A program made the translations under genes and the position numbers. A stretch of DNA of 47,266 nucleotides, taken from an uncultured Bacteroidales bacterium (GTDB taxonomy: Bacteria; Bacteroidota; Bacteroidia; Bacteroidales; Paludibacteraceae). Below are positions 9,787 to 41,638 of the stretch, in pieces. The notes under the pieces were generated by a model. That model was not told the DNA's origin. It searched no databases and saw only the letters and a list, made by a program, of their open reading frames with translations. Position 1 is the stretch's first letter, and every line of letters begins with the position of its first letter. The DNA lies in assembly GCA_902774075.1 (NCBI GenBank), contig CACYGT010000003.1, positions 1 through 47,266 on the forward strand, written 5' to 3'.

Positions 9787-11103
9787 TTATAATAATTCTC
9801 CGTACAAATCAAATTCTTCCGCCTTGGTGATTTTTACATCTACGAATTGTCCGCTAACCGCTAACCGTTCACCGCTAACCTGTATGAGCACTTCGCAGTC
9901 CACCTCCGGGCTATCATACTGCGTCCTTCCGACATAGTACTCGCCTTCCTCCCGATCAATCACCACGCGCTCTATCGTCCCCACTTTCTTAGCCATCAAT
10001 TCGCCACTTATACCTTGTTGTATGGCCATCAGCTCGGAAGCTCGCGCTTCCTTCACCTCTTGCGGGATATCATCCTTGTAATGTTTGTTCGCGTACGTTC
10101 CTTCTTCGTCCGAGTACGCAAAACAACCCATTCGGTCAAAACGCATCTCCTTTACCCACGCCTTCAACTCCTCAAAATCCTCCTCTGTCTCTCCCGGGTG
10201 ACCGACCAACAGCGTTGTTCGGATACAAACCCCCGGCACTTTCTCCCGTATCTTCCGCAGCAATGCGTCCTGTTCCGCTCGCGTGATGTGGCGTCGCATC
10301 AGACCCAACATATGGTCTGTACAATGCTGCAACGCGATATCCAGATACTTGCACACATTCTTATGTCGCGCCATCACGTCCAACAACTCCTCCGGAAAAT
10401 CCGTAGGGTAGGCGTAATGTAACCGTATCCACTCAATCCCCTCTATCTGCGCCATCTCATCAATCAGTTCCGGTAACATATGCCGTCTTTCCAAATCCAG
10501 CCCGTAACTGCTCAAGTCCTGCGCAATGACGTTCAACTCCTTCACGCCCTGACTCACCAGCCACTTCACTTCCTCCAATATCTCCGCTTTCGGCCGACTT
10601 GTATGCCGTCCCGTGATCAACGGTATCGCGCAGTACGAACACATCCTGTTGCAGCCTTCTGAGATCTTCAAATATGCGTAATGTGCGGGGGTGGTGAGAT
10701 GTCGTTCAAACCTCGGTAAAAGTCTAATAAAACCTCGTAAATCCCTCGTGCCTATTTCGTCTTTGATTCGTTCAAAATCAAACTTTCCAAAATAGGCATC
10801 TACTTCCGGCAATTCCTCTTCCAATTCCGCTCGATAGCGCTCGCTCAGACATCCCATCACGATCAGCGTCTTCAACTTCCCCTTTTTCTTCCGCTCCGCC
10901 ATCTGGAGTATCATGTTGATGCTCTCTTCTTTAGCGTCTCCTATAAAACCGCAGGTATTGATCACGCACACTTCGCCTTTCGGCTCTTCCGGATCATGCA
11001 CACATCGCCATCCAGCGGCCTCTAATTGCCGCATCACCCGCTCTGCGTCCACCAAGTTCTTCGAACACCCCAGCGTGATAAAATCTACCTGTCCCTTTAT
11101 CAT
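9787..11103 (-). CDS. rimO: Ribosomal protein S12 methylthiotransferase RimO
   Basis: This 438-residue radical-SAM enzyme adds a methylthio group to the conserved aspartate of ribosomal protein S12. The N-terminal UPF0004 domain begins FITLGCSKNLVDAE. The SAM [4Fe-4S] motif CNRMCSYC lies near residues 151-158. A C-terminal TRAM-like domain is present. RimO rather than MiaB is supported by the LGCSKN start and the IPLITGRHTSR context. The start ATG overlaps the recQ stop by one base (TGATG). Near the C-terminus a 7-bp tandem repeat encodes VSGERLAVSG, which looks like an in-frame insertion of repeat DNA. Confidence 0.95.
   Translation of the reverse strand: MIKGQVDFITLGCSKNLVDAERVMRQLEAAGWRCVHDPEEPKGEVCVINTCGFIGDAKEESINMILQMAERKKKGKLKTLIVMGCLSERYRAELEEELPEVDAYFGKFDFERIKDEIGTRDLRGFIRLLPRFERHLTTPAHYAYLKISEGCNRMCSYCAIPLITGRHTSRPKAEILEEVKWLVSQGVKELNVIAQDLSSYGLDLERRHMLPELIDEMAQIEGIEWIRLHYAYPTDFPEELLDVMARHKNVCKYLDIALQHCTDHMLGLMRRHITRAEQDALLRKIREKVPGVCIRTTLLVGHPGETEEDFEELKAWVKEMRFDRMGCFAYSDEEGTYANKHYKDDIPQEVKEARASELMAIQQGISGELMAKKVGTIERVVIDREEGEYYVGRTQYDSPEVDCEVLIQVSGERLAVSGQFVDVKITKAEEFDLYGELL
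9851..9880. repeat. Heptamer tandem repeat inside rimO
   Basis: Four 7-bp units, CCGCTAA x2, CCGTTCA and CCGCTAA, plus a partial unit. They lie in frame in the C-terminal region of rimO, about 20 codons from its stop. Confidence 0.88.
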
Positions 11104-13286
11104 CAGTTACCCAAATCGCAGTGGAATTTTAGCCTTACCAAGCGAACATGCATCTCGTCATAATAATCCTCGCCCAGTTCCTCCATGGCCTTCTTGATGT
11201 TATCGTCATCCGCCTCTTTGAAGTAGTCGTATATCTCCTGCTCCTCGTCCGGATCCACCACCTCTTTGATGAAATAGTTGATGTTGATCTTCGTTCCGCT
11301 GAATACGATTGCCTCCAACTCGTCCATCATCTCCTCCATGCTCATACCGCAACTCTCCGCCAAATCGTCGAGGTCCACACGCCGGTCGATGGCTTGTATG
11401 ATCTGTTTCTTTCGGGTCGATTTCTTCGCTACCGTTCGAATGCGCAGGTCTTCCGGACGAATGATCTCGTTTTCGTCTACATATTCCTTAATAACGCGCA
11501 GGAACTCGTCGCCGTATCGTTTGGCTTTCGCTACACCTACACCCGGAATCGTTAATAACTCCTCCATCGTGATAGGATAGGTAGTAGCCATGGCTTCCAG
11601 ACTCGGGTCTTGGAAGATCACGAACGGAGGTACGTCGCATTTCTTTGCCATCTTACGACGGATATCCTTCAGGATTGAGAACAGCACCTCATCCGCGGCC
11701 GCACAGGTAGCACCCGCGCCTTCCATATCCAACTCATCCTCGTCGTGCACCTCGATCGGCACTTCGAACTTACCCGGCTTGCGAATGAATTTCTTGCCAT
11801 CCTTGGTGAGCTTGAGGTCGCCGTACGTATCCACGTCCTTTTGGATCATACCGACCAGCAGCGCTTGCCGCAGGATCGCATGTAACGTACTCTCCTCCAC
11901 GTCGCTCGCGGCACCGAAGTTATCCAACTCGTCGTGGTGATAACTCATCACCTCCGCCGTCTGGTTGCCGTGTAGGATATCTACGATATGTTCGGCCTTA
12001 TGGTGTTCGTTCACTTGCTGAATCGTCTCCAGCGCAATCTGCAACAACTCACTTGCATCCACCTGCTTGTAGGTCTTACGGCAGTTATCGCAGTTACCGC
12101 ATTTATCTTCCGTATATTCCTCGCCGAAATAGTGTAGCAGCAGTTTTCTACGGCAAATAGTACTCTCCGCATAACTCTGCGTCTCAAACAGCAACTGGTT
12201 GCCGATACCGATCTCCTTCGGCGTCTTGCCTTGCTGGAACTTCCTTAGACGCTCGATGTCATCGGGGCTGTAAAAGCATATACACTGTCCTTCACCGCCG
12301 TCTCGGCCCGCACGTCCAGTCTCTTGGTAGTATCCCTCCAAACTCTTCGGAATATCATAGTGTACTACAAATCGCACGTCCGGCTTATCAATACCCATAC
12401 CGAATGCGATCGTCGCTACGATCACCTGGCACTCCTCCATCAGGAACGCGTCCTGATTTGCCGTTCGCGTCGCCGCGTCCATGCCGGCGTGGTAAGGCCG
12501 TGCAGAAATTCCGTTTACTTTCAATACCTCCGCCAGATCCTCTACTTCCTTACGCGCCAAGCAGTAGACGATACCGCTCTTCCCCTCCATGCCGCGGATA
12601 TAACGAACCAAATCCTTATCTACATCGCTCGTCTTCGGCCTTACTTCGTAATACAAGTTCGGCCTGTTAAAACTGCTCTTGAACACCGTAGCGTCCGGCA
12701 TGCCTAAGTTCTTCTGGATATCTTTCTGCACTTTCGGTGTCGCGGTCGCCGTCAACGCGATAATAGGCGCCTTGCCAATACGCTGTACCATACTGCGGAT
12801 CTGACTGTACTCCGGACGGAAATCATGACCCCATTCCGAGATACAGTGCGCTTCATCCACGGCATAGAAACTGATCTTCACGCCCTTCAGGAAGTCCACG
12901 TTCTCGTTCTTCTGCAGACTCTCGGGCGCCAGATATAAGAGCTTCGTGCGGTGCTCCAATACATCCTCCTTTACCGCATTGATCTCTGTTCGGCTCAGAC
13001 TTGAGTTGATGAAATGGGCTACGCCCTCTTCCTCCGAGTAGTTACGCATGGCATCCACCTGATTCTTCATCAGCGCGATCAGCGGCGAGATAACTATCGC
13101 CACGCCGTCCATGATCAAGGACGGTAACTGATAGCACAGACTCTTTCCGCCACCCGTAGGCATCAACACAAACGTGTCATTTCCTTCGATCACGTTGCGG
13201 ATGATAGCCTCCTGGTTCCCCTTGAAGGTGTCGAATCCGAAATAGGTCTGAAGCGCTCCTACTAATTCCTCATGTGTTACATTCAT
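11103..13286 (-). CDS. recQ: ATP-dependent DNA helicase RecQ
   Basis: This is a 727-residue 3'-5' DNA helicase. I chose the ATG at 13286 (MNVTHEELVGAL) because the helicase homology begins there and the upstream extension is AT-rich promoter DNA. Features are Walker A MPTGGGKS (about residue 40), DEAH near residue 143, a helicase C domain with QETGRAGRDG, a zinc-binding cysteine set (C..11-18..CGNCDNC) in the RQC region, and an HRDC domain with TIPGVGVAKAKRYG. A further helix-turn-helix-like C-terminal region follows. Length and layout match Bacteroidales RecQ. It is the first gene of the minus-strand operon and has its own promoter at 13333-13363. Confidence 0.96.
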   Translation of the reverse strand: MNVTHEELVGALQTYFGFDTFKGNQEAIIRNVIEGNDTFVLMPTGGGKSLCYQLPSLIMDGVAIVISPLIALMKNQVDAMRNYSEEEGVAHFINSSLSRTEINAVKEDVLEHRTKLLYLAPESLQKNENVDFLKGVKISFYAVDEAHCISEWGHDFRPEYSQIRSMVQRIGKAPIIALTATATPKVQKDIQKNLGMPDATVFKSSFNRPNLYYEVRPKTSDVDKDLVRYIRGMEGKSGIVYCLARKEVEDLAEVLKVNGISARPYHAGMDAATRTANQDAFLMEECQVIVATIAFGMGIDKPDVRFVVHYDIPKSLEGYYQETGRAGRDGGEGQCICFYSPDDIERLRKFQQGKTPKEIGIGNQLLFETQSYAESTICRRKLLLHYFGEEYTEDKCGNCDNCRKTYKQVDASELLQIALETIQQVNEHHKAEHIVDILHGNQTAEVMSYHHDELDNFGAASDVEESTLHAILRQALLVGMIQKDVDTYGDLKLTKDGKKFIRKPGKFEVPIEVHDEDELDMEGAGATCAAADEVLFSILKDIRRKMAKKCDVPPFVIFQDPSLEAMATTYPITMEELLTIPGVGVAKAKRYGDEFLRVIKEYVDENEIIRPEDLRIRTVAKKSTRKKQIIQAIDRRVDLDDLAESCGMSMEEMMDELEAIVFSGTKININYFIKEVVDPDEEQEIYDYFKEADDDNIKKAMEELGEDYYDEMHVRLVRLKFHCDLGN

Positions 13287-13332
13287 ATAGGTATTGTTCG
13301 TTATTTTTTGCGATAATATACGATTTAGGCCA

Positions 13333-13363
13333 CAAAAGTACAAAATATATTTTATATATGCAA
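13333..13363 (-). promoter_or_regulatory. recQ operon promoter
   Basis: On the minus strand a -33 TTG (13361-13363) and a -7 element TACTTTTG (13333-13340) are separated by 20 bp, the Bacteroidetes sigma-ABfr pattern. The predicted leader before the recQ ATG is about 40 nt. Confidence 0.7.
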
Positions 13364-13411
13364 CATTTTAGTAAAATTTTTAGAAAAAAAACAAAAAAAT
13401 ACATAAAACTC

Positions 13412-13442
13412 TTGCGTATATCATAAAAATGTTGTAATTTTG
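13412..13442 (+). promoter_or_regulatory. Promoter of the alpha-glucan utilization operon
   Basis: A -33 TTG (13412-13414) and a -7 TAATTTTG (13435-13442) are separated by 20 bp. They lie about 40 nt upstream of the MFS start. No other TAnnTTTG element is evident between the MFS gene and susC, so the five genes may share this promoter. Confidence 0.7.
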
Positions 13443-13481
13443 CCCTCGATTTGTAAAGTATATTTGACAAATTATAAAATA

Positions 13482-23050: not shown

Positions 23051-23110
23051 CTTTTTCCTCCCACAAAACCTCTCGGAACCCGCCAAAATACAGGGTTGCA
23101 AGGGAGTATT

Positions 23111-23154
23111 ATTGGGTGATTATTGCGTGATTATTGCGTGATTATTGCGTGATT
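23111..23154. repeat. 11-bp tandem repeat containing the GH2 stop codon
   Basis: There are four tandem units: ATTGGGTGATT once, then ATTGCGTGATT three times. The array overlaps the last codons and the TAA stop (23142-23144, minus strand) of the beta-galactosidase gene and runs on downstream. No spacers are present, so it is not CRISPR. Confidence 0.92.
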
Positions 23155-25580
23155 CGAAAACTTCCCTTATGTCCCTTCTTTAGAATGAACGTACATTGTC
23201 CGGCGAAGGCGTGCATCTGCGGCTCTACGAAAGAGTCCAGACAAGCGGCATCGCCGTTAGCGGCTGCTACAAAGCCCTCACCCTCGTATTGAATCAGGTT
23301 ATTGGCAAACGGACAGAGGTTACCGTCCTTGTCCACTACGCGTACGGTGTAATAGCACAGTTCTTCCGGGTTCTCTTTCTTATTAGCCCAAATAACTTCT
23401 AAATGATCTGGTTCACCGGCTGTCTTCACGCTTGTACGTGCGGCCTCTTTGCCATTCTCGTCGTAAGCCACTACTTCGATCTTGCCTGCTTCGAACGGCA
23501 CATCGAACCACATCAGACGATAACGCGGCAGTAACTCCGGACGCGGTGCAGAGCCCCATACCGGCGGCACAAAATCACCCACCTTCGGCATCGCACTCAC
23601 GCCTTCAATCGTCTCGCCCTTGGCCAGCCGCTCGGTCTCTTCGGCTGTCGCAAAACGCAGTTTGCCGTAACTCTTGCCGTTGACGAACAACTCCGCACTC
23701 GGATAACTCGTATAGCAGAATACTGGCACCAGATCGCATTCGTTCCAGTTCCAGTGGGGCAGTACGTGCAAGGTCGGCGATTTCTTGTTCCATTGACTGC
23801 GGTAGAGATAGTATCGATCTTTCGGCAGCGACGCAAGGTCAATAATACCGAAATAAGAGCTATGACTCGGCCATGCGTCCGTATCGTAAGGAGACGGTTC
23901 ACCGAGATAGTCAAAGCCTGTCCAAACGAACTGACCTAAGGTCCAGTGATAGTCGTCCTGCAACTGAAAATCTTGTTCCGGCAGTCCAGACCACGGACAG
24001 TACTCTACATCATATCCGCTACTCTGGAAATCATCGTACATTGCGAAGTCCTTCAATACAGCCGGTGTCTTATACACACCGCGGCTGGAGACCGTAGAAG
24101 CGGTCTCAGAACCCAGAATCATCTTCTGCGGCAGGTTCTCGTATCCCTCTTCGTACCGGCTGGTACGGTAGTTAAAGCCCGGCAGTTCGACTGCGGCGCC
24201 AAAACCGTTATGAATCACATGCATCGCTTGGTCCATACCGTTCGTCACAGGGCGAGTCGGGTCGAGCTCATGGAAGAGCGCTTGCAGATTTGTCACGATC
24301 TCGATACCATCCGGCAGCACTTGGTTCCATACCTCATTACCGCTCGACCAGAGCATCACGCAAGCGTTATTGCGGTAGTGCTTCACCATATTGGTGATAT
24401 CCCATTTCCACCACTCGTTGAACTCTTTGTTATAGTCATTCTCGGTCTTTCCCCAGTTCCATACATCGAACGGCTCAATCATCATCATCATACCCATCTC
24501 GTCGCACAGTTCAACCAACTGCGGGTCCGGCATGTTATGACTCGTACGAATTGCATCGCAACCCATGTCCTGCAACATCGCTATCTGGTGACGCAGAGCA
24601 TCTTTGTGCACCGCAGCGCCGAGAGGACCTAAGTCATGGTGGTTGCACACGCCTTTGAACTTACGCGTCTCGCCGTTGAGTTGGAAGCCATGTTCCGGTG
24701 TATAAGAGATCGTGCGAATACCAAAGCGCGTCTCTTTCTCGTCCAATAACTCTTGATTTCTATACACCCGTGTACGCGCGATATACAGATTCGGCGTCTC
24801 CGGACTCCACAGTTGCGGGTTCTTTACTTCCGCCTCGCCTTCCTGGCCTTCGATAGTAGCGACTACCTTGCCCTTATACAGTATATCGGTCTGTATTCTG
24901 TACTCTGTAGTCTGTACTCCCAAAGGCTCTACGCCGTTCTGTAGCTCAGCAGCGAAATAGACTCTTGCTTTCTCTTTGCTCACTTCCGGTGTACGCACGA
25001 GTGTTCCGAAGGTCGGGATATGAATCGGGTGGGTCTCTACGAGGTGCACATTGCGGTACAGACCTGCACCCGGATACCAGCGGCTCTGCTGCGGTTTGTT
25101 CTCCAGAAAGACATCGATATCTACGCTGTCGCCCGTGATGAGTTCGGGTAGGATATAGCAGTCGAACGTGTTGTACCCGTACGGCCAATAGACCATCTCT
25201 TCGCCGTTCACATACACGTCTGCATGACTCATCGCGCCGTCGAAGACAAGGGTATAGAACTTATCCTTGTTCACCTTCACACGAGTGCGATAATGGCCCT
25301 TGCCCATCCACGGCAGACCACCGCTACGGCCGGTCTTCCATGTCGGTTCACTCTCGCCGTTCTGCACCACGATCACTTCCTGCAGGTCATTCGACCGGTC
25401 GAAAGGACCGCTGATGGCCCAGTCATGAGGAATAACGACATCTTCCCAAACGGGATTTTCTGTCGTGTCCTGTGTGAACTGCCAGTGACGAAGAAGCGTA
25501 TCCGTGCGAACAGACTGTTTGGCGCAGGCACTAAGCAATAGGCTAATAACGATCGCACTAAATAGTTTGATCCTATTCAT
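23142..25580 (-). CDS. GH2 beta-galactosidase lipoprotein
   Basis: This 812-residue protein has lipobox SLLLSACAKQ, so it is exported and lipid-anchored. It has the GH2 order: jelly-roll sugar-binding domain (WEDVVIPHDWAI, GKGHYRTRV, DVYVNGE), Ig-like domain, TIM barrel (FKGVCNHHDLGPLGAA, IRTSHN) and C-terminal beta domains (DUF4982-like, Ig-like). The acid/base is about E416 in SSGNEVW and the nucleophile about E492 in LGSETAS. Overall sequence favours beta-galactosidase among GH2 activities. It follows galK by 63 bp filled with heptamer repeats, so both are probably co-transcribed from the galK promoter. Its stop codon lies inside an 11-bp repeat array, and another heptamer repeat sits within the coding region. 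Confidence 0.9.
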   Translation of the reverse strand: MNRIKLFSAIVISLLLSACAKQSVRTDTLLRHWQFTQDTTENPVWEDVVIPHDWAISGPFDRSNDLQEVIVVQNGESEPTWKTGRSGGLPWMGKGHYRTRVKVNKDKFYTLVFDGAMSHADVYVNGEEMVYWPYGYNTFDCYILPELITGDSVDIDVFLENKPQQSRWYPGAGLYRNVHLVETHPIHIPTFGTLVRTPEVSKEKARVYFAAELQNGVEPLGVQTTEYRIQTDILYKGKVVATIEGQEGEAEVKNPQLWSPETPNLYIARTRVYRNQELLDEKETRFGIRTISYTPEHGFQLNGETRKFKGVCNHHDLGPLGAAVHKDALRHQIAMLQDMGCDAIRTSHNMPDPQLVELCDEMGMMMMIEPFDVWNWGKTENDYNKEFNEWWKWDITNMVKHYRNNACVMLWSSGNEVWNQVLPDGIEIVTNLQALFHELDPTRPVTNGMDQAMHVIHNGFGAAVELPGFNYRTSRYEEGYENLPQKMILGSETASTVSSRGVYKTPAVLKDFAMYDDFQSSGYDVEYCPWSGLPEQDFQLQDDYHWTLGQFVWTGFDYLGEPSPYDTDAWPSHSSYFGIIDLASLPKDRYYLYRSQWNKKSPTLHVLPHWNWNECDLVPVFCYTSYPSAELFVNGKSYGKLRFATAEETERLAKGETIEGVSAMPKVGDFVPPVWGSAPRPELLPRYRLMWFDVPFEAGKIEVVAYDENGKEAARTSVKTAGEPDHLEVIWANKKENPEELCYYTVRVVDKDGNLCPFANNLIQYEGEGFVAAANGDAACLDSFVEPQMHAFAGQCTFILKKGHKGSFRITQ
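24890..24917. repeat. Heptamer tandem repeat inside the GH2 gene
   Basis: Four 7-bp units, TCTGTAT, TCTGTAC, TCTGTAG and TCTGTAC, lie in frame in the Ig-like region of the beta-galactosidase. On the minus strand they encode VQTTEYRIQT. Confidence 0.82.
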
Positions 25581-25582: not shown

Positions 25583-25645
25583 TTAAATCTTAAATCTAAA
25601 ATCTAAAATTTCAAATCTCAAATCTCAAATATCAAATCTCAAATC
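25583..25645. repeat. Heptamer tandem repeat between galK and the GH2 gene
   Basis: Nine consecutive 7-bp units drift from TTAAATC through TAAAATC to TCAAATC. They fill the whole spacer between the two genes, and the distal edge forms part of the galK stop codon (TGA at 25644-25646, minus strand). Confidence 0.93.
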
Positions 25646-27724: not shown

Positions 27725-27753
27725 AAGAGGCTCACACGAGCCTCTTATTTTTT
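27725..27753. terminator. Bidirectional terminator between convergent genes
   Basis: A perfect 9-bp stem AAGAGGCTC / GAGCCTCTT with ACAC loop has an A run before and a T6 run after. It can end transcription of the 249-residue protein gene (+) and of panB (-). Confidence 0.9.
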
Positions 27754-27779
27754 ACACCTTACACCTTACACCTTACACT
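27752..27779. repeat. Heptamer tandem repeat at the panB 3' end
   Basis: Three TTACACC units and one TTACACT unit lie between the terminator and the panB stop (27782-27784), ending 2 bp from that stop. Confidence 0.9.
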
Positions 27780-28674: not shown

Positions 28675-29643
28675 ATGCGAAGAAATACCTACATATTTAT
28701 CGGTTTGTGCGTCTTGGCAGCCCTTTTATTCGGCTTGGACGTGTGCAGCGGCAGCATGTGGCTGTGGCCGTTCGGAGACCTGAGCGCCATGGAGCATCAG
28801 ATCTTGCATGCCATCCGTCTTCCCAAAGCCTTGACGGCAATCATGGCGGGTGCGGCGCTGTCCGTGTCGGGACTGATCATGCAGACGCTTTTCCGTAACC
28901 CTCTTGCCGGACCGTACACGCTGGGTGTCTCGTCCGGTGCCAGCCTTGGCGTCGCCCTCTTGACGATGATGGGGGGAATCCTTTCAGTTTTCAGTTTTCA
29001 ATTTTCAGTTTTCACCCTTCCTGTTGCTGCCTGCGTAGGTGCAACGCTAGTTCTCTTGCTGGTGCTGGCTGTCAGCCGAAGAGTAACGAGCAACGTCAGC
29101 CTGCTTATCGTGGGTTTGATGTTCGGTTCTATCGCCGGCGCACTCGTTAGCCTCATGCAGAACTTCGCCAACCCCGATGCGCTCAAGCTCTTCATCGTCT
29201 GGACGCTGGGTTCGCTCAGTAGTGTAGGGTGGGGAGATATGCAGCTGATGGTACCTATCCTGCTGCTCGGTACACTCTTTGTCTTATTGGCGCTTAAACC
29301 GCTTAACGGCCTGCTGTTAGGCGAAGACTATGCACGGGGACTGGGTATCAACGTGGAGCGCACACGCCTTTTCATTGTGCTCGCCACAGGCCTGCTCGCT
29401 GGTGGAGTGACGGCTTTCTGCGGACCGATCGCCTTTGTCGGTGTGGCTGTCCCGCATATCGCCCGCGGACTCTTCCGCTCCTCTAACCACCGTCTCACTC
29501 TGCCGGCTTCCGCCCTCATCGGCGCTTGCCTGCTGCTCCTGTGCGACATCCTCTGCTCGCTGGCGATCTATCCTCTTCCCATCTCCACCGTCTCCGCCCT
29601 CTTCGGTGCCCCCGTCATCATCTGGATCATCCTAAAAAAATAA
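28675..29643 (+). CDS. FecCD/BtuC-type ABC transporter permease (iron-siderophore, heme or cobalamin)
   Basis: This 322-residue polytopic permease is close to the usual 330 of the FecCD family. Motifs include LPKALTAIMAGAALSVSGLIMQTLFRNPLAGPYTLGVSSGA, here cited by its core RNPLAGPYTLGVSSGA, plus LGINVERTR, FCGPIAFVGVAVPHIAR and the C-terminal FGAPVIIWIILKK. The start is the ATG at 28675 (MRRNTYIFIG). A 7-bp repeat at 28983 inserts LSVFSFQFSVF into one loop or helix. No ATPase or substrate-binding protein gene is adjacent; a 40-residue ORF follows after 12 bp. Iron, heme and corrinoid cannot be told apart from this sequence. Confidence 0.92.
   Translation: MRRNTYIFIGLCVLAALLFGLDVCSGSMWLWPFGDLSAMEHQILHAIRLPKALTAIMAGAALSVSGLIMQTLFRNPLAGPYTLGVSSGASLGVALLTMMGGILSVFSFQFSVFTLPVAACVGATLVLLLVLAVSRRVTSNVSLLIVGLMFGSIAGALVSLMQNFANPDALKLFIVWTLGSLSSVGWGDMQLMVPILLLGTLFVLLALKPLNGLLLGEDYARGLGINVERTRLFIVLATGLLAGGVTAFCGPIAFVGVAVPHIARGLFRSSNHRLTLPASALIGACLLLLCDILCSLAIYPLPISTVSALFGAPVIIWIILKK
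28983..29013. repeat. Heptamer tandem repeat inside the FecCD permease gene
   Basis: Units TTCAGTT, TTCAGTT, TTCAATT and TTCAGTT plus a partial copy lie in frame. They encode a hydrophobic Ser/Phe/Val stretch, so the insert is compatible with a membrane protein. Confidence 0.88.
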
Positions 29644-31636: not shown

Positions 31637-34600
31637 TTATTTCACACGCGCGCCTGAGGCGTTGAACCACATTTCTCCGTAGCGTATATAGAGCGCGCCG
31701 TTAATGATATATTTACGATTTAACGATTGACGATTGACGATTGTCTCATCGATGCCTTGCGGATCTATCGGGTTGAGGTCGCCTGTCTGACTATCGCTAA
31801 ACTCAACACGATAGAGCGAATAGGCTTTAGACTGCGCATAATCATCCGCGATGACATAGATATAGACGCACTTATGCGCTTCGTCAAATGCGATGAAGGT
31901 CTGCGCAGAAACACCATCAGCACTCGCCGCAAACTGCGCGCAGTCATCACAATAGGTATCCGCTACTTGCGCAATATGCTCGGCAAAAATGAGCTTCTCC
32001 TCATCAATAGAGAATGCACTCAGATGCTTGTTATACACCATCTGCACATCGTCCAGATAGACGGAGTCCAAGATATTTTTTCCATCTTCAACCGGATAAG
32101 ACGAGCCACCACCCGGCGTCATATTGGTGGTAAAAGTCGTGAGAATATACGCCGGTTGGTTCTGCGCAGCCGCAGGATAATAGGTGAACGGCACAGAAAC
32201 ACGCTGCCATCCCATTTCCGGCGTAGCAGCATAGTTGACCACAGCCGTGGCGAGTTTGACATCTCCATAGATGTCGTTATCCTCCGGGTCTTGATAGCGT
32301 GCATCGGTAGTGATAATCGTACTCATGCGCGCTTTGTTGACTTCGTTATGCACATTGCGGTCTGCCGGCTGATATTTCGCCCAGAAGATGATAGAGTCCG
32401 GACGGCCGTGGAACGGTGTGTTGAATCCCTCATTCATCGGATCCGAGAAGTTATAGTTCTTCGATGCGTCCTGCGCCGTGCTTGAACCGGCATTGATTTG
32501 GCCGTTGGTGCAGTTACCGTTCGCCGCGACACCTAAGAGCATAGAGGAAGAAAGAAGGGCACTCTGCTCACCCTTTGAACCCGGACGGATATCCATAGAG
32601 GGCACAAACTGGAATGTCTTTTCTTTCACAAACATAGCCATGCTTCCGGTCGCAGAACCGAAGGAATGCCATCCCGATGGTTCGTTATTGGTCCACGAGC
32701 CCTCAAAACCTCCGTTGGACAGGTTGTAGTTCTTATTTTGCTCCGCAACGCCACGGAAGAAGACGAGAATACCTTGCGGCAGCGACGGAGCCTCGATATA
32801 GAGCACCACGTGTGCCTGCGAACCAGAAAGCAAGGAATAATAGGTCTCTTTGCCTTCCTTCAGTCCGTTAATCATCGTCACTTTAGCACGCTCGGCAATA
32901 GTATCTAGATAGAGTGCTCTATCTTCAAGAAGCAACTGACCATAAGCCGTTATCTCAATATTCGGGATGACGATATTGCCCAATTTACCGCCGTTATAGC
33001 TGAAATCCGGCAGTACAAACGTGACCGTGCTGTCAATCGTTCCTGGCAAGACATATACAGCCTTCTCGGGATAGATAGCTGCGTCAATAACCAGCTCTCC
33101 GTCATAACGACCACAAACCGCGTTAAGCGAAACGGTATCGGAACCACTCCAAGGTTTGGTGGTAGGAAGAACGGTGAGATGCAAGATACGAGTAGAATCA
33201 CACTCATAGACAGAGAGGAAAGATGCCTTCAGAATCGCCATTCCCGGCGTCATATCGCCCAGCGAGTATCCCTCCCATGTTTTCTCTTCGCCTTGACGAA
33301 TCGTCATATATTCCTCAATACGGTATTTCGAGGCAATTTGAATGGTAAGATGAACCAGCGAGTCACCTCCGTATTGATTCTTCTGGTCCAGCAATATATC
33401 TCCGGTGAAGGCCTCTTTGTAATACACGCCGTTGAACTCCACTGAGTCTCCGTCGCATACATACGCCGTATATTCTCCGTACGTACGGGGAATAGTCGTC
33501 ACATAGAGCAAGAGGCGATAGACGGAGTCACAACCCAGCGTTGTTTTCAGGCTATCGTAGAAGATATAGGGTTCTGTGCTATACTCAAGATTCGCGAAGT
33601 GCTTGCCGCGCCAGTCGAATTGCTGCTCCGCCGTGGACTGCTCTTCGCTGAAAAGATACGTAGGAAGGACAGAAAGCGAGAGCGTGATAATTGAGTCACC
33701 TCCGCCAACATTCGGGATGGTGGTGGTATAAACACCTGTCTCCGTCAGGTTCTCGAAGAGCTCATCGGAATACGGTTCGTTATCACACGTAGTAGCCGAA
33801 TAGGCATATTGCGTATCGCCGGGACCTATATCTTCCGGCTCTGCCATTTGGATAGTATAGAGCGTATAGGATTTGGCCTGCGCATAGTTATGCGCCACCA
33901 CATAAACATACACCTGGTTCGTGGCACCGCTATAGCCGATGAAGGACTTCGCCGCTCTACCATTCGTAGTGGCAGCAATGAGATACTCGCTGTCGCTATA
34001 AGGAGCATCCAAGGTAGCCTGGCCATCATTAAACGAAATGGTAGCACCATTCAGCGTGAGCGAGGTCAGACGGCAGTTATAAATCATCTCTACATCATCC
34101 AAATAAATATTATCTACGCTGCTGCCGGATGTAGAACCACCGCCGGGCTTGGCATTCGTGGTGAACGTCATCAGCATATAGGCTGCCTGCGAAGGCTCCA
34201 CTGCATAATACTTGAATGGCACGGAGATACGCTGCCAACCTTTCGTTGAAGTAGCCGCGTAATTGATTTCCGCATCAGCGATTTTGACGGAAGAGTAACT
34301 ATCCGACTCCGGGTCCTGATAGCGATTCGCCGTAGTAATCACGGCGTGCGCACGGGCTTTATTGTTGGTATTTCCCGCATCGCCGTCAGCCGGGATGTAC
34401 TTCGCCCAGAACACCATCGAATCAGGATTGCCTACGAAAGGCGTGTTATAACCGCTGTTAGAAGGGTCCGAGAAATTATAGTTCTTCGATGCATCACCTG
34501 CCGACATAGAGCCGGCGTTAATCTGTCCGTTGGTGCAGTTTCCGTTTGCCGCCACGCCAAACATCGATTTGGACTGCAGGCGTGCACTATACTGCCCTTT

Positions 34601-35188
34601 GGAACCCGGACGTTTATCCGACTGCTGCGTAAACTGCGCTGTATTTCCACTGACGAACGAAGCCATGCTTCCGGTAGCCGTACCAAAGGAATGCCATCCG
34701 GATGGTTCGTTATTGGTCCATGAGCCCTCAAAACCTCCGTTCACAAAATCATAATTCTTATTGCCCGGCGCTCCGGAGAACGTCACAGGTATAGGTGCCG
34801 GCAGATCCGGTACATCTATTGACAGCGTCACTTGCGCCGAGGTGGCTGAGAGGACTGAGTTATCGCTCATTGACACCGCCACGTGTGCATCGATAGCACG
34901 GATATAAAGCGGACTATCCTCGAGCGTCAAACGGCCGCTTGCATTCATCGGGATATTGACAAGCACGATATCTCCAAGAGGCGCTTGATTATAAGAGAAA
35001 TCCGGCAGTACAAACGTGACCGTATTGGTCTCTACGCCCGGCAGGATATAAATCTCTTTATTCGGATAATTGGTGCCGTCAATAGTAAGGTCTCCATTAA
35101 ATGTACCTTCAACATCCTTTACTGCCACGGCCATCGCGGTCATGCACAGCATACATAAACATCCTAAAAGGACAAAAATCTTCTTCAT
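31637..35188 (-). CDS. Large secreted protein with duplicated calycin-like/PCMD-like region
   Basis: This 1183-residue protein has a signal peptide ending CMTAMA. Residues about 28-130 resemble a calycin-like domain (GTFNGDLTIDG, FVLPDFSYN, LGDIVLVNIPM). Residues about 145-380 resemble PCMD, a putative carbohydrate metabolism domain (NGGFEGSWTNNEPSGWHSFG, VDNIYLDDVEMIY). The whole unit recurs at about residues 705-1125, some 675 residues later. Between them lie CDST-type modules like those of the 614-residue protein. The end is KYIINGALYIRYGEMWFNASG... It follows the TonB receptor gene by 18 bp. Inference: a surface or secreted ligand-binding protein that works with that receptor. The ligand is unknown. 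Confidence 0.82.
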   Translation of the reverse strand: MKKIFVLLGCLCMLCMTAMAVAVKDVEGTFNGDLTIDGTNYPNKEIYILPGVETNTVTFVLPDFSYNQAPLGDIVLVNIPMNASGRLTLEDSPLYIRAIDAHVAVSMSDNSVLSATSAQVTLSIDVPDLPAPIPVTFSGAPGNKNYDFVNGGFEGSWTNNEPSGWHSFGTATGSMASFVSGNTAQFTQQSDKRPGSKGQYSARLQSKSMFGVAANGNCTNGQINAGSMSAGDASKNYNFSDPSNSGYNTPFVGNPDSMVFWAKYIPADGDAGNTNNKARAHAVITTANRYQDPESDSYSSVKIADAEINYAATSTKGWQRISVPFKYYAVEPSQAAYMLMTFTTNAKPGGGSTSGSSVDNIYLDDVEMIYNCRLTSLTLNGATISFNDGQATLDAPYSDSEYLIAATTNGRAAKSFIGYSGATNQVYVYVVAHNYAQAKSYTLYTIQMAEPEDIGPGDTQYAYSATTCDNEPYSDELFENLTETGVYTTTIPNVGGGDSIITLSLSVLPTYLFSEEQSTAEQQFDWRGKHFANLEYSTEPYIFYDSLKTTLGCDSVYRLLLYVTTIPRTYGEYTAYVCDGDSVEFNGVYYKEAFTGDILLDQKNQYGGDSLVHLTIQIASKYRIEEYMTIRQGEEKTWEGYSLGDMTPGMAILKASFLSVYECDSTRILHLTVLPTTKPWSGSDTVSLNAVCGRYDGELVIDAAIYPEKAVYVLPGTIDSTVTFVLPDFSYNGGKLGNIVIPNIEITAYGQLLLEDRALYLDTIAERAKVTMINGLKEGKETYYSLLSGSQAHVVLYIEAPSLPQGILVFFRGVAEQNKNYNLSNGGFEGSWTNNEPSGWHSFGSATGSMAMFVKEKTFQFVPSMDIRPGSKGEQSALLSSSMLLGVAANGNCTNGQINAGSSTAQDASKNYNFSDPMNEGFNTPFHGRPDSIIFWAKYQPADRNVHNEVNKARMSTIITTDARYQDPEDNDIYGDVKLATAVVNYAATPEMGWQRVSVPFTYYPAAAQNQPAYILTTFTTNMTPGGGSSYPVEDGKNILDSVYLDDVQMVYNKHLSAFSIDEEKLIFAEHIAQVADTYCDDCAQFAASADGVSAQTFIAFDEAHKCVYIYVIADDYAQSKAYSLYRVEFSDSQTGDLNPIDPQGIDETIVNRQSLNRKYIINGALYIRYGEMWFNASGARVK
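31714..31742. repeat. Heptamer-like tandem repeat near the 3' end of the 1183-residue protein gene
   Basis: Units TACGATT, TAACGATT, GACGATT and GACGATT (7, 8, 7, 7 bp) lie just before the codons of the conserved C-terminal tail, in frame with the gene (VNRQSLNRK on the minus strand). Confidence 0.75.
31800..35105. repeat. Internal duplication of about 1.25 kb within the 1183-residue protein gene
   Basis: Copy 1 spans about 33850-35105 and copy 2 about 31800-33140, offset by roughly 2.03 kb. Some blocks are nearly identical in DNA, such as GGTTCGTTATTGGTCCA near 34710 and near 32680, while others have diverged. Confidence 0.8.
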
Positions 35189-38010: not shown

Positions 38011-38361
38011 CATTTATGTTTAAGGAAAAGGTGTCGTTTTTTTTTATAGTTAATAATCGCATATCGAATATTAACAAAAAAGCACTATTGTTTGTGAAAA
38101 ATCTTAACAATAGTGCAATTTCTAGTATCTGCCTTATCCTGAAATAAGTAGCCACATTTAGGAACCCTAAAATGTCTACATTATGTATCAGAGAAAAGGT
38201 TATTGGTTCTCACCGGAAGAACGAATCGCATTTGGTAGGGCTTTTGTGCAGCATTAGAGTTCCATAAAATGCTATGTTTCTCCGCAATAGTTAGCTTAAT
38301 GAGTTGATAGTAGGCGTTATAGATGATTATTGATTAGCATTGCAATAAGCTATACACACAA
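37988..38361. other. Region without a recognisable gene
   Basis: About 370 bp of AT-rich DNA between the TonB receptor promoter and the tRNA-Ser terminator. It holds the hairpin at 38082-38116. It also holds GTGGCTACTTATTTCAGGAT (minus strand, near 38134-38155), which resembles the repeated ends of IS21-type elements from memory. Only short ORFs of about 25-35 codons are present and none looks like a gene. Confidence 0.5.
38082..38116 (-). terminator. Hairpin with T-run on the minus strand
   Basis: A perfect 11-bp stem GCACTATTGTT / AACAATAGTGC with a 13-nt loop is followed on the minus strand by T6. No gene directly upstream on that strand explains it, since tRNA-Ser has its own terminator. 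Confidence 0.65.
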
Positions 38362-38392
38362 AAAAATAGAGGTTTTGAATGCCTCTATTTTT
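38362..38392 (-). terminator. tRNA-Ser terminator
   Basis: A perfect 11-bp stem AAAAATAGAGG / CCTCTATTTTT with a 9-nt loop, 8 bp past the tRNA 3' end on the minus strand. Confidence 0.85.
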
Positions 38393-38400
38393 CTCTTTTG

Positions 38401-38487
38401 CGGAGAAAGGGGGATTCGAACCCCCGGTACCCTTACGAGTACGACAGTTTAGCAAACTGTTGGTTTAAGCCACTCACCCATCTCTCC
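38401..38487 (-). tRNA. tRNA-Ser (anticodon GCU)
   Basis: The 87-nt gene on the minus strand begins GGAGAGAT. The acceptor stem GGAGAGA pairs with TTTCTCC (one G-T), followed by discriminator G. The anticodon arm is CAGTTTGCTAAACTG with anticodon GCT. The T arm is GGGGGTTCGAATCCCCC, and a long variable arm typical of class II serine tRNAs precedes it. CCA is not encoded. It has its own promoter and terminator. Confidence 0.96.
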
Positions 38488-38512
38488 GTAGCTTAAATCT
38501 CGAAAGCGGGTG

Positions 38513-38543
38513 CAAAGGTACTGCTTTTTTTTTAATTGACCAA
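38513..38543 (-). promoter_or_regulatory. tRNA-Ser promoter
   Basis: -33 TTG (38541-38543) and -7 TACCTTTG (38513-38520) on the minus strand, 20 bp apart. The -7 context AAAAAAAGCAGTACCTTTG is shared with the panB promoter. Confidence 0.75.
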
Positions 38544-38561
38544 ATAATTTTGCACTTTTTT

Positions 38562-38592
38562 TTGTTCATATCGTAAAAAAGTTGTAATTTTG
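38562..38592 (+). promoter_or_regulatory. Promoter of the CYTH-CotH operon
   Basis: -33 TTG (38562-38564) and -7 TAATTTTG (38585-38592), 20 bp apart, inside AAAAAGTTGTAATTTTGTGC. The ATG follows 20 bp later. Confidence 0.75.
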
Positions 38593-38611
38593 TGCGCTAA
38601 ATGATACAATT

Positions 38612-39079
38612 ATGCCCAAAAACACCGAAATAGAACGTAAGTTCTTAGTTACCTCAGAGGCTTTTCGAGCCCAAGCGACCACTTCCTATGAGATCATGCA
38701 GGGGTACCTGTGCAAGGACCCGGAGAAGACTATCCGCGTACGTATACGCGACGCGCGGGCGTTCCTTACTATTAAGTCCTCCAACCTCCGACAGGGGCTT
38801 GCTAAGTTCGAATGGGAGCGCGAGATAGACCCTGCCGATGCCAAGGAACTGCTCTGTCTCTGCCTCCCCGGAGCAATCGCCAAGACCCGCTATATCATTC
38901 CTGCACCGGCTTATAACGGCCAAGAGCGGTGCTGGGAAGTGGACGTGTTCCATGGCCGGCTGGAAGGACGAATCCTTGCCGAGATCGAGTTAGGCGACGA
39001 GAACGAACCCTTCACTCGTCCCGAGTGGCTCGGCGATGAGGTCACCGGTCTGCCGCAGTACTATAACGCCAACATGTAA
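38612..39079 (+). CDS. CYTH domain protein (triphosphate tunnel metalloenzyme)
   Basis: This 155-residue protein has EIERKFL at residues 6-12, the ExExK signature of CYTH/TTM enzymes. Other conserved charged strands are KTIRVRIRD, FLTIKSS, KFEWEREID, WEVDVFHG and AEIELGDE. The size fits the short bacterial CYTH proteins related to NE1496, which act on inorganic tripolyphosphate or organic triphosphates in a tunnel with metal ions. No signal peptide is visible, so it is cytoplasmic. The CotH-like gene starts 14 bp downstream, so both are probably co-transcribed. Confidence 0.93.
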   Translation: MPKNTEIERKFLVTSEAFRAQATTSYEIMQGYLCKDPEKTIRVRIRDARAFLTIKSSNLRQGLAKFEWEREIDPADAKELLCLCLPGAIAKTRYIIPAPAYNGQERCWEVDVFHGRLEGRILAEIELGDENEPFTRPEWLGDEVTGLPQYYNANM

Positions 39080-39093
39080 TAACCGCAAACGAA

Positions 39094-40863
39094 ATGAAAA
39101 GGATTTTTCTCATCATAGTCAGTCTGCTTTCTGTAACCGGACTATTCGCACTCACCATTCCGCAAGGCACACTGTATTTTGACAACAGCCTCACGCGCTA
39201 CAGCGCTGTGCGGTTTGTCTTTGGCAGCGACCAGCGGGCGGAGACCTATGCACTCGCTATGACTCAAGACGGCAACAAATGGCGTGTGGAGATCCCGCAG
39301 ACCGTGACCGATATGTACCGCTTTACGTTTGTAGGCGGTGCCATACGCGAAGGACTTTATGCACAAGACTTCAACACTTTCAAAGACAGCATCAGCCATC
39401 AACTGTCCATCAACCGCACAGCCACCTCGGACGCGCAGATGAACGCAGGAGACATCTTCGTGCCCCAGTCCGGCGACAACTGGGCACAAGGCTATTGGAT
39501 GGACTTGGCTACTTGGCAGACCTCACAAGGCGGTAGCGGGACCAACAACATTTCCGGCACCCTGCCCGTCGTTTATATCAACACACAGAACAACCAAGCT
39601 GTTCTGGACAGAGAGACGCAAGTGCCTATGACGCTCTATATCGATTCCATCATCCCTGATTATCACCCGCTTGGTTCTGCACAATCACCTATTGACGGCA
39701 CCATCAAAGGGCGCGGAAACTGGACGTGGAACGGCTTTGACAAGAAACCGTACAAGATCAAGTTTGACGTCAAGCACAAAGTGCTGGGCATGCCCAATAA
39801 TAGGCACTGGTGTCTGATGGCCAATGCGGACGATTACCTCGGTTTTCTCAAGATGCCGGCAGGTTTTATGATTAGCAAAGCAATCGGCCTGCGTTGGACG
39901 CCCCGTACCCGCCCCGTTGAACTGGTGCTGAACGGTAAGTACATGGGACTGTATTTCTTGACGGAACACGTGCGTATTGCCTCCAACCGCGTACATATCC
40001 ATGAGCAGGCGGACAACGAGACACACCCTGACTCGATCACCGGCGGATGGCTCGTCGAGATAGATAACTACCCGTCCGAGAACAATATCGAGTTTGAAGA
40101 AGGGAACGGGCAATACGTCATGGTCTCGCTCAAAGAGCCCGAAATACTCTCTTCACAGCAACGCCAGTATATTGAGGATCAGATATACACCATCAACTCC
40201 ACCTTGTACGGTCATTCGGAATCTGACTTAAAGCAACTGCTCGATATTCCGGAAGCCGCCAAATACTACCTTGTGCAAGAAATCATGGAGGATTGTGAGA
40301 GTTATCACGGCAGTTGTTTCCTCTATAAGGACCGTGATAGTCTGGGAATAGCCGACCAATGGAAATTTGGCCCTGTATGGGATTTTGGCAATGCCTACGA
40401 CCGACACCAAGAGACATGGATATACGACGGCCCCACATTCGCGCAGTACTGGATAGGCCAACTGGCGTCATGGCCCGCGTTTCAACAGGCAGTACAGGAG
40501 CAGTGGTGGGTTTACTACCACACACAGAAAGATGAGGTGCGGACGAAGATTGCCAATATGGCGAGCAAGATCACGCAAGCAGCAAAGAACGATGCCGTGG
40601 TATGGCGTAACACGCGGGAATACAGAGACAATAGCAATATGAGCGGCAGACTGAGCGATTTCCTCTCGCGCTACGATTGGCGTATCCAATGGCTCTATAG
40701 CCAGTGGGGAGAAGGGATCCGGCCGCAAGCATGGGGCTTTGAAAATACGTATGAAGAGACTCCTTCGCGCGGACAAAAAATTATCCGCAACGGTCAATTG
40801 CTCATTGAACGCAACGGTGTTTTCTATGACGTATTCGGCCGCTGCATTAACTTTTCTCAGTAA
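39094..40863 (+). CDS. CotH kinase family secreted protein
   Basis: This 589-residue protein has a signal peptide (MKRIFLIIVSLLSVTGLFA) and no lipobox. Residues about 20-140 are a beta-rich region of unknown type. The CotH domain follows: IKGRGNWTWNGFDKKPYKIKF (core GRGNWTW, KKPYKIKF), LMANADDYLGFLKMPAGFMISKAIGLRW, ELVLNGKYMGLYFLTEHVRI, and GPVWDFGNAYDR as the metal-binding part. CotH proteins are atypical kinases related to Fam20. The last 30 residues (KIIRNGQLLIERNGVFYDVFG) match the tails of two other secreted proteins here, pointing to a shared export or anchoring signal. It follows the CYTH gene by 14 bp. Confidence 0.92.
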   Translation: MKRIFLIIVSLLSVTGLFALTIPQGTLYFDNSLTRYSAVRFVFGSDQRAETYALAMTQDGNKWRVEIPQTVTDMYRFTFVGGAIREGLYAQDFNTFKDSISHQLSINRTATSDAQMNAGDIFVPQSGDNWAQGYWMDLATWQTSQGGSGTNNISGTLPVVYINTQNNQAVLDRETQVPMTLYIDSIIPDYHPLGSAQSPIDGTIKGRGNWTWNGFDKKPYKIKFDVKHKVLGMPNNRHWCLMANADDYLGFLKMPAGFMISKAIGLRWTPRTRPVELVLNGKYMGLYFLTEHVRIASNRVHIHEQADNETHPDSITGGWLVEIDNYPSENNIEFEEGNGQYVMVSLKEPEILSSQQRQYIEDQIYTINSTLYGHSESDLKQLLDIPEAAKYYLVQEIMEDCESYHGSCFLYKDRDSLGIADQWKFGPVWDFGNAYDRHQETWIYDGPTFAQYWIGQLASWPAFQQAVQEQWWVYYHTQKDEVRTKIANMASKITQAAKNDAVVWRNTREYRDNSNMSGRLSDFLSRYDWRIQWLYSQWGEGIRPQAWGFENTYEETPSRGQKIIRNGQLLIERNGVFYDVFGRCINFSQ

Positions 40864-40868
40864 ACAAG

Positions 40869-40952
40869 TTACTGACAAAAGAAAAAAAGAAGGTTGTCTC
40901 GCGACAACCCAACCTTTTCATTTAACCTTAAATCTAATACCATGAAAAACAC
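40869..40952 (-). ncRNA. Candidate short transcript (small RNA or leader peptide unit)
   Basis: Downstream of a minus-strand promoter (40957-40987), a transcript of about 70 nt would run from near 40952 to the T-run of the hairpin at 40882-40909. It contains an ATG at 40943 opening a 24-codon ORF (begins MVLDLRLNEKVG) that reads through the hairpin to TAA at 40869. The next feature on this strand is the end of the convergent CotH gene, so it does not lead into a gene. It could be a small RNA or a relocated leader/attenuator. I recall similar short units in other Bacteroidales but cannot name a family. Confidence 0.42.
40882..40909 (-). terminator. Intrinsic terminator of the short transcript
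   Basis: A perfect stem GGTTGTC / GACAACC with TCGC loop (40892-40909) is followed on the minus strand by CTTC and T7. It may also stop CotH-operon transcripts from the other side. Confidence 0.7.
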
Positions 40953-40956
40953 GGTG

Positions 40957-40987
40957 CAAAAGTACTGCTTTTTGACCATATGACCAA
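40957..40987 (-). promoter_or_regulatory. Promoter of the short transcript
   Basis: -33 TTG (40985-40987) and -7 TACTTTTG (40957-40964) on the minus strand, 20 bp apart. The context AAAAAGCAGTACTTTTGC is near-identical to the panB and tRNA-Ser promoters. Confidence 0.62.
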
Positions 40988-41051
40988 ATATTTTTGCGAA
41001 AAAGTGTCAAATTTCTTAAAATTGTAAAATTTAGTTGACAAAATGACATGT

Positions 41052-41612
41052 TTAATCGCATAATGAGAACAAATCTGCACGCGGATTGACCAAAAGCACA
41101 GGGACGAGTGCATGTTGGATAGCTTTTCGTTCCGGCGGACCGAACAAAATGTCATCCAGACCGTATTCGCGGCTGGCTGTAAGGATTAGCAGGTCATATC
41201 GGAAGTCTTTTTGCCGCTCTGCCGCTTCTTTGGCCAGCGAGAAACTGTCTTTGCGCGCTTCGCACACCTCGTATGATATCTTCTCTCCGGTTTTCTCGCT
41301 CACGGCCTTGATATGGGTGACGATGCGGTTGACGTTCTGCTGCGCGTGCGAACCGTAGTCTCGAGCTTTGAGCAGAATGATATGTGCGCCGGTTTTGCGG
41401 GCAATATAAGTGCATATCTCCGCCTTGTAGGTCTCTTCCTCCAGCATGGAGACAGGTACCAACAGACGATGTAGCGGCTTGACGATCATAGTGGGAGTCA
41501 CAAAGATATACGGCCGACGTTCGTCCCTGCAGTCGTTGAGGTGACGCTGGATAACGCGCGCTTTGTTTTCGCACTCTACTAACCTAATATCGTCGTTATT
41601 GTCCCACAACAT
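41052..41612 (-). CDS. Universal stress protein (UspA)-like protein
   Basis: This 186-residue protein starts at ATG 41612 (MLWDNNDDIRLV). After about 45 residues a Usp-like alpha/beta domain begins with HRLLVPVSMLEEETYKAE, then KTGAHIILLKARDYG, RYDLLILTASREYG and a C-terminal PVLLVNP. The usual ATP-binding G-2x-G-9x-G(S/T) motif is not clear, so it may be a non-ATP-binding type. The N-terminal part could be the remnant of a first Usp repeat. It lies 25 bp after mltG, a spacer filled by heptamer repeats, and is probably the last gene of the mutS-mltG operon. Confidence 0.7.
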   Translation of the reverse strand: MLWDNNDDIRLVECENKARVIQRHLNDCRDERRPYIFVTPTMIVKPLHRLLVPVSMLEEETYKAEICTYIARKTGAHIILLKARDYGSHAQQNVNRIVTHIKAVSEKTGEKISYEVCEARKDSFSLAKEAAERQKDFRYDLLILTASREYGLDDILFGPPERKAIQHALVPVLLVNPRADLFSLCD

Positions 41613-41617
41613 AAATG

Positions 41618-41638
41618 TCAAATCTCAAATCTCAAATT
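41618..41638. repeat. Heptamer tandem repeat between mltG and the Usp-like gene
   Basis: Three units, TCAAATC, TCAAATC and TCAAATT, the same unit as at 25611-25645. The mltG stop codon (TGA, 41638-41640 minus) begins at the array edge, as with galK. Confidence 0.85.

Follow-up and report, generated by a model that had tools for sequence, protein, structure and literature searches.

The window analysed here comprises 47,266 nucleotides (contig C3, CACYGT010000003.1) from the genome of an uncultured gut or rumen bacterium of the Paludibacteraceae, order Bacteroidales, and carries dispersed short tandem arrays whose units differ in sequence and share a period of 7 bp. They lie within or between genes for, among others, a radical SAM/TRAM-domain protein, a GH2 beta-galactosidase-like enzyme, a galactokinase-like protein, PanB, a FecCD-family permease, YceG and Usp (Table 1). 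An initial annotation, made from the sequence alone, had listed seven heptamer arrays, all of which were recovered by Tandem Repeats Finder (TRF), as were its 9-bp array (1075-1117) and its 11-bp array (23108-23154); two further short 7-bp arrays, at 8464 (2.1 copies) and 14843 (2.3 copies), were absent from that list. The four coding arrays (9851, 24890, 28982 and 31711) are in frame, as had been claimed, and five of the seven arrays have a stop codon at a distance of about 100 nt or less.

Excess of period-7 arrays in the genome and its relatives

In the genome of the window, G000 (1.797 Mb in 95 contigs, 86% complete), arrays were counted with TRF at a score of at least 40 over 447,266 bp, or 25% of the genome. 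This sample consists of the window and 20 stretches of 20 kb, namely the initial 20 kb of each of contigs C2 and C4-C20 and two stretches from C1, one of them with an already known match; five Markov shuffles served as the null. Period 7 accounts for 78 arrays, of which the window holds 7 and the other stretches 71, against a shuffle mean of 0.0, and a chance origin of the arrays is rejected on this count. The peak at 7 is sharp, with 12 arrays at period 8, 11 at period 9, 15 at period 11, 11 at period 12 and none at periods 5 and 6. When the whole genome was searched with the pattern of one unit family, 77 matches were obtained, against 12 with the reversed pattern. Tandem 7-bp units thus occur far above chance, as in the heptameric simple sequence repeats taken as a descriptive class, to which we also refer the short tandemly repeated repetitive sequences (STRR), as the heptameric repeats of cyanobacteria are named.

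A search with MutS placed the window near metagenome-assembled genomes of Bacteroidales, five of which share 87-90% of MutS, one of these five being labelled Paludibacteraceae (goat rumen). Across the genus, 40 genomes were sampled unevenly (7 to 447 kb each), part of the stretches having been chosen around the FecCD gene or from contigs with a known pattern match; G004 (15 kb, G+C content 0.25, atypical) was excluded from the totals. These samples hold 233 arrays of period 7, with 62 of period 8, 8 of period 6, 46 of period 9, 96 of period 11 and 48 of period 12. Per 100 kb, the density of 7-bp arrays is 28 in G035, 25 in G027, 20 in G034, 19 in G014, 17 in G000, 12 in G026 and 11 in G017; it is lower in G033 (6), G023 (5), G020 (2.5), G011 (1.0) and G028 (0). 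With 28 further members sampled over smaller stretches, some members of the genus have frequent arrays, and in others they are rare or were not seen at all; none of period 7 was found in the 34-100 kb samples of G012, G024, G028 and G029. The array-rich and array-poor groups of genomes used below were picked from the same density data that they describe. Samples from four other families of the order hold 0-1 arrays of this period per 100 kb.

At the level of the class, a five-unit array with a TCAA core was matched at period 7 in 98 of 295 Bacteroidia genomes, at period 8 in 52, where some matches are really 4-bp repeats, and at period 6 in 27; the corresponding matches within G000 number 37, 0 and 0. 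The sharp peak, the genus pattern and these class-wide counts support the earlier proposal of one generating process specific to the period.

Table 1. Tandem arrays of the window and genes referred to in the text (positions are those of the window unless a stretch is named)
Feature	Position	Context	Basis
CCGCTAA x4.3, 7-bp	9851..9880	in frame in radical SAM/TRAM-domain gene (9787-11103, -), ~80 nt ahead of stop	TRF, gene call, Pfam
TCTGTAC x4.3, 7-bp	24890..24919	in frame in GH2 beta-galactosidase-like gene (23142-25580, -); consensus unit free of stop triplets on both strands (read from unit)	TRF, family search
AAATCTC x8.7, 7-bp	25585..25645	fills the space from the stop side of a galactokinase-like gene (25644) to the start side of the GH2 gene (25580), with 4 nt and -2 nt to the neighbouring gene ends	TRF, Pfam
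TTACACC x3.9, 7-bp	27752..27778	between convergent genes, 3 nt off panB stop	TRF, Pfam
TTTCAGT x4.7, 7-bp	28982..29014	in frame in FecCD-family permease gene (28756-29643, +)	TRF, Pfam
ATTGACG x4.6, 7-bp with one 8-bp unit	31711..31743	in frame, ~91 nt ahead of stop of gene 31637-35134 (-)	TRF
AAATCTC x3.6, 7-bp	41613..41637	exact spacer between yceG stop and usp start, 0 nt on both sides	TRF
mutS	42715..45330 (-)	-	NCBIfam TIGR01070; served to fetch orthologous loci
polA, 780-aa frame	L010 16520-18862	5'-3' exonuclease and polymerase domains with ~130 aa between; no PF01612 match	

Gene boundaries, a common motif and orthologous sites

Positions relative to genes rest on a home-made, non-standard gene caller. 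Among the 233 genus arrays, 58.8% are intergenic (11.0% of random positions). A stop is no more than 50 nt away for 46.8% of them and a start for 36.5%, compared with 6.8% and 6.6% at random. For the 137 intergenic arrays taken separately, the same distances give 66.4% near a stop and 49.6% near a start, against 22.4% and 22.2% of random intergenic positions. The initial annotation had placed most arrays at or near the 3' ends of genes. The bias towards stops upholds that view against random positions, but starts are enriched as well and the tilt towards stops is modest (58.8% of the arrays are closer to a stop than to a start, against 50.5% at random); gene boundaries, at starts as well as stops, describe the location better. 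Of the 103 arrays at tandem junctions, 69 come to within 15 nt of the stop of the preceding gene and 52 to within 15 nt of the start of the following one. For 41 both hold, and the array is then the whole spacer, as between yceG and usp. Well inside genes lie 81 of the 233, and intragenic arrays are evenly spread along the genes (Kolmogorov-Smirnov p = 0.40). Local GC skew gives a leading-strand bias (138 against 95 arrays) that is confounded with gene direction.

Units at junctions and in genes differ in their stop triplets. A stop triplet in the sense direction occurs in the unit of 73 of the 103 tandem-junction arrays as compared with 15 of the 81 coding arrays, and one in the antisense direction in 45 and 43, respectively. 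As 7 and 3 have no common divisor, three copies (21 nt) of a unit with a stop triplet suffice to shut every frame. We take these counts to mean that the reading frame sorts the arrays, those with stops creating gene ends and those without remaining inside genes.

The units had been described as mostly unrelated, which is borne out only in part by the 39 unit classes among the 78 arrays of G000. However, once rotated and aligned by strand, they have a degenerate motif in common, A[TGA]TTGA[AGT] (hereafter ANTTGAN), at 5.89 bits against 4.18 +/- 0.10 for permuted columns; one analysis of this motif kept 72 + 101 arrays, short or weakly phased ones being dropped. The likeness stops at the unit. 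The unit ATTTGAG is present in 12 arrays that have no common flanks, and, apart from near neighbours, the flanks of the 78 arrays of G000 resemble one another in just three matches of 14-20 nt. Longer words made of several units are shared in G000 no more than after shuffling of unit order (p = 0.21-0.35); genus-wide, sharing exceeds shuffles at k = 21 (p = 0.007), with p = 0.12 at k = 24 and p = 0.23 at k = 28. Loci of G000 that share units thus do so without common flanks or shared multi-unit words, which places the likeness at the unit level. A single copied element, be it a miniature inverted-repeat transposable element or another mobile repeat, is accordingly rejected for the heptamers, with no conserved sequence beyond the array in G000 apart from these few matches. 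Block copying between loci is likewise unsupported in G000; in the genus as a whole it exceeds shuffles at a single one of the three word lengths. In hairpin avoidance, the units do not differ from base-permuted units (142 arrays, p = 0.33). One 30-nt array, two CTTTAAA followed by CTTTCAA units, is identical at L011 8794-8823 and L019 17405-17434, with dissimilar flanks.

Orthologous loci were compared with one assembly per species, so that each difference is one between species. ATTTGAG units make up the array of the window at the yceG-usp junction, and AAATGGT/AAATGAA units those of L029 and L032; no array is present in L030, which has a short gap, or in L031 and L067, in which the stop and start overlap. 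Ahead of mutS, the junction is array-free in the window and in L031, carries TGATTGA x5.7 in L067 and has a short related run in L029; as the gene next to it was not matched in L030 and L032, the comparison covers the window and these three relatives. Two other sites were chosen because the window carries an array there. Downstream of panB, 2 of 27 orthologues have an array (the window and G015), with different units, and in the FecCD permease 4 of 39 orthologues, the window included, have one, with four different units. Between species, arrays at orthologous sites are thus gained, lost or altered in their unit.

The FecCD site also bears on how units change. The arrays of the window and G035 have a common start, and their majority units, TTTCAGT and TTTCAAC, are two bases apart; one unit of the window is TTTCAAT, intermediate between the two. 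This one site suggests that units were replaced in place, and we read the G027 and G031 sequences as decayed versions of the array. The loop measures 31 aa in the window as compared with 23 aa in seven array-free relatives. However, array-free loops can be long (32 aa in G002, 31 in G004, 31 in G061 and 36 in G034), and length alone is therefore no mark of insertion.

Repeats of other periods occur nearby. Four 11-bp arrays with the unit TGTGTGATTAT/GCGTGATTATT (window 23108-23154, L010 3129-3177, L016 9668-9713 and L024 13901-13945) have about 60 bp of upstream sequence in common, including CCCGCCAAAATACAGGG in three of them, and look like a dispersed element of their own, distinct from the heptamers. 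A 9-bp unit near ATTCGGAGT/ACTCGGAGT is repeated in the ABC-F gene of the window (1075-1117), and a similar one in a different gene on another contig (L022, just before 7295). Arrays of the 8-bp CGGGATAC family lie in genes at L023 8695, 9561 and 9877, L025 8695 and L028 5002, with no evident common flanks; the array at L023 8695 directly adjoins a 7-bp array of the same gene.

Slippage as the probable origin, and the alternatives

We consider it probable that the arrays result from lineage-specific, slipped-strand expansion of chance 7-bp doublets and are tolerated where genes permit. A 7-bp doublet would arise by chance, be expanded through slipped-strand misalignment during DNA synthesis, be homogenised in place through further slippage, and decay or disappear as species diverge. 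Survival would be limited to harmless sites, that is, gene junctions and permissive protein stretches in which the array stays in frame; a stop-bearing unit would set the end of the gene that it enters, and stop-free units would stay inside genes. Units shorter than 7 bp would fall below a cut-off between 6 and 7 bp and fail to expand, perhaps for too little homology or because of small-loop repair, and the peak at 7 would be the product of this cut-off and of the steep drop of chance seeds with unit length. The period, the location and the differences between species at the same site are established by the comparisons above; what we infer is that slippage is the agent, that expansion has a cut-off between 6 and 7 bp, and that the arrays are tolerated and not functional.

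The supply of doublets is consistent with this account. Perfect 2-copy 7-mers in seven array-rich genomes number 218, against 65.0 expected, with a further 51 of at least 3 copies; the counts are 11 against 17.0 in three poor genomes and 22 against 19.5 in four other families. Isolated 7-bp doublets are close to chance in eight rich genomes (72 against 65.0) and fall below it in six poor ones (13 against 28.5), which puts the excess of the rich genomes mainly in expanded arrays. No rise in the lag-7 match rate was seen in intergenic DNA outside arrays. The expected number of chance doublets falls from 185.5 at 6 bp to 65.0 at 7 bp and 17.0 at 8 bp. There are few 6-bp arrays in the genus samples despite the larger number of seeds, which together with the cut-off would put the peak at 7; from 7 to 8 bp, seeds and arrays (233 to 62) decrease in about equal ratio. 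The turnover at orthologous sites, the scarcity of common flanks and of block copying in G000, and the sorting of stop triplets likewise count in favour of slippage.

Several observations weigh against slippage as a sufficient explanation. The fit between seeds and arrays at 7 and 8 bp was noticed post hoc, and perfect arrays of at least 3 copies stand at 51:4, a steeper drop than that of the seeds. Arrays of periods 9, 11 and 12 exceed what falling seed numbers predict; the 11-bp arrays are in part a separate element, and most 12-bp arrays lie in genes. The units themselves are not arbitrary. ANTTGAN fits arrays inside genes and outside them (motif score 3.57 in coding arrays, 3.80 at junctions), and unit pairs with at least 6/7 identity make up 15.4% within species and 8.4% between species, as compared with 4.3-4.4% for base-permuted units (189 arrays from twelve genomes; label permutation p = 0.004). 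Even coding arrays have A+T-rich units (G+C 0.377 in the genus samples against 0.514 for G000 coding DNA), and the units are asymmetric in G and C between strands (88 of 153, 56.9 expected). Variation within arrays, measured on 215 of the 233 in a motif register fitted on the same arrays, peaks at the last motif position (13.9%), followed by the G position (9.6%) and the others (4.5-7.2%; permutation p = 0.0005); this variability of the last position was seen in G000, G034, G035 and G026 but not in G014, G017 and G007. Plain slippage predicts neither the motif, nor the strand and composition bias, nor a wobble specific to the register, nor a switch between on and off within the genus.

Some of these features would be expected if the arrays were selected binding sites, with a protein, binding DNA or single-stranded nucleic acid, that recognises ANTTGAN at junctions and regulates the translation or transcription of the neighbouring genes, comparable to what MacGregor proposed for TAACTGA. 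A common motif with constrained and wobbling positions, a placement adjoining starts and stops, and a C-poor strand that is more often the sense strand at tandem junctions (65 against 38) all agree with such a role, and S1, Csp or Csr proteins have been proposed as binders, CspB being able to bind heptamer repeats (PMC4679880). However, the 81 arrays deep in genes carry the motif nearly as well as those at junctions, arrays are seldom kept at the panB and FecCD sites, which were picked for the array of the window, and the four genomes without any 7-bp array in their samples do without such sites there. We regard selection for binding as unlikely, and tolerance of slipped arrays as the better account of their location.

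A second proposal concerns what could switch expansion on. Loss of the 3'-5' proofreading domain of PolA in most of the genus might let misaligned ends be extended, with lineages that keep the domain remaining array-poor; this would be a candidate cause within the slippage account rather than a full alternative to it. PolA of G000 has no match to PF01612 and thus no recognisable 3'-5' exonuclease domain, and among 41 genus genomes searched PF01612 was found within polA only in G011, G013, G019, G024 and G028. These five together hold 4 arrays in 288 kb. Outside the clade of the window, 15 others hold 54 in 655 kb, and the 17 members of that clade hold 171 in 1038 kb; G001, whose frame is partial, and G004 were excluded, and G020 and G063 had no PolA match. 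Of the 39 PolA frames matched in the genus, 28 measure 771-806 aa, ten 818-907 aa and one, a part, 373 aa. Against this lead, the contrast per genome is non-significant (Mann-Whitney p = 0.095), as is the Spearman correlation with the length of the PolA frame (37 genomes, p = 0.18; the 20 genomes outside the clade, p = 0.75). Three of the 4 arrays belong to G019 alone, and by eye the five genomes look like one or two lineages. G002, within the clade of the window, combines a short PolA with 1 array in 40 kb, and in other parts of the class several genomes with arrays have PolA frames of full length, for example G171 (949 aa) and G311 (960 aa) among the matches listed. The lead is a weak one, and we think it quite improbable that PolA loss set the arrays going. 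Other candidate genes fared no better. DinB (PF00817), compared with array density by eye, was not found in 8 of 41 genomes, which include the poor G011, G013 and G028 but also the array-bearing G022 and G033 (9.1 and 6.0 arrays per 100 kb), and exonuclease VII (PF02601) is uninformative, being present in 38 of 41. The mismatch repair gene mutS is present in the array-rich G000.

A trans-acting enzyme, present in some species of the genus and missing from others, might instead expand DNA in 7-nt steps with a preference for ANTTGAN and a nearly free last base, in which case repeats would be written under guidance and would not stem from passive slippage. We give this little credence; were it true, unrelated junctions and protein loops would gain the same kind of word, and the genus would have a continuing source of new gene ends and of protein-loop peptides. 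Very doubtful, too, is that arrays are made or spread in trans by locus-to-locus copying, by a small mobile element or by a reverse transcriptase working from an RNA template in the manner of telomerase: the recurrence of ATTTGAG without common flanks, a few array stretches of 30-32 nt identical at two loci and the same wobble speak for it, but the flank and multi-unit-word comparisons above speak against it, and no RVT_1 match was found in G000 (86% complete) or in the array-rich G014, G017, G034 and G035. RVT_1 was found in 10 of 41 genus genomes, including the array-rich G027; the lack of a match in five array-rich genomes rejects a reverse transcriptase as the agent at the Pfam level.

From a biological perspective, turnover of such repeats can rewrite gene ends, the spacing of genes and protein loops in a common gut group, and it matters for gene calling and for the interpretation of insertions and deletions in metagenome assemblies. 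The dominance of 7 nt among the longer repeats of bacteria is left to brief conjecture in the papers considered. The genus offers a natural comparison of array-rich with array-poor relatives over many sites, so that the cause can be mapped.

Comparison with known heptamer systems

Paludibacter propionicigenes is a species of the Bacteroidales. TAACTGA heptamer arrays were described in five Bacteroidetes that include it, with some relatives being array-free (MacGregor 2015, PMC4679880), and the remark of the initial annotation that no described equivalent process was known to it from Bacteroidales was therefore too strong. For the Beggiatoaceae, a role of the TAACTGA repeats in translation was proposed (PMC4679880). 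The arrays studied here resemble the TAACTGA repeats of Beggiatoaceae, cyanobacteria and Bacteroidetes in being intergenic heptamers by start and stop codons, with stops in three frames, and in being present or absent between close relatives, with shorter gaps when absent (PMC4679880). They differ from those of the BOGUAY genome, in which a single unit prevails and repeats of its single-base variants are rare (PMC4679880), by their 39 unit classes in 78 arrays. TAACTGA is not among the classes of the G000 sample; the related AACTGAA is found in three arrays.

More generally, among the longer repeats of most genomes, units of 7 nt are reported to be the commonest class, for which slippage was proposed and the length of 7 nt linked to polymerase contact (Mrazek et al. 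2007, via PMC4679880 and PMC4692102). Unlike the prokaryotic long heptanucleotide repeats of that survey, those of this genus combine many imperfect units per genome, a degenerate motif, intragenic arrays and a near on/off pattern among relatives. They resemble cyanobacterial STRR as heptameric tandems dispersed genome-wide, but differ in units and hosts; three heptanucleotides of Calothrix are mentioned in PMC4692102. That article deals with the G-rich heptamers of Xanthomonas and Nostoc (Rehm et al. 2015) and states that no detailed literature on heptameric repeats is available. As with the GGGAATC repeats of Xanthomonas, we see dispersed intergenic 7-nt arrays that vary in length and sequence among close relatives, but the Xanthomonas units are G-rich and form quadruplexes (PMC4692102), whereas those described here are A+T-rich: a triple G or C, as in G-quadruplex-type runs, occurs in 1 of the 39 unit classes (AACCCGT) and in 2 of the 78 arrays.

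No description of multi-unit heptamer arrays in this group was recognised among the literature matches listed, most subscription journals being outside their coverage, and nothing decisive came from PMC4060949 and PMC3121766. Heptamer repeats are already known as a class; what is new here is the many units within one genome, the near on/off pattern across the genus and the insertions into protein loops.

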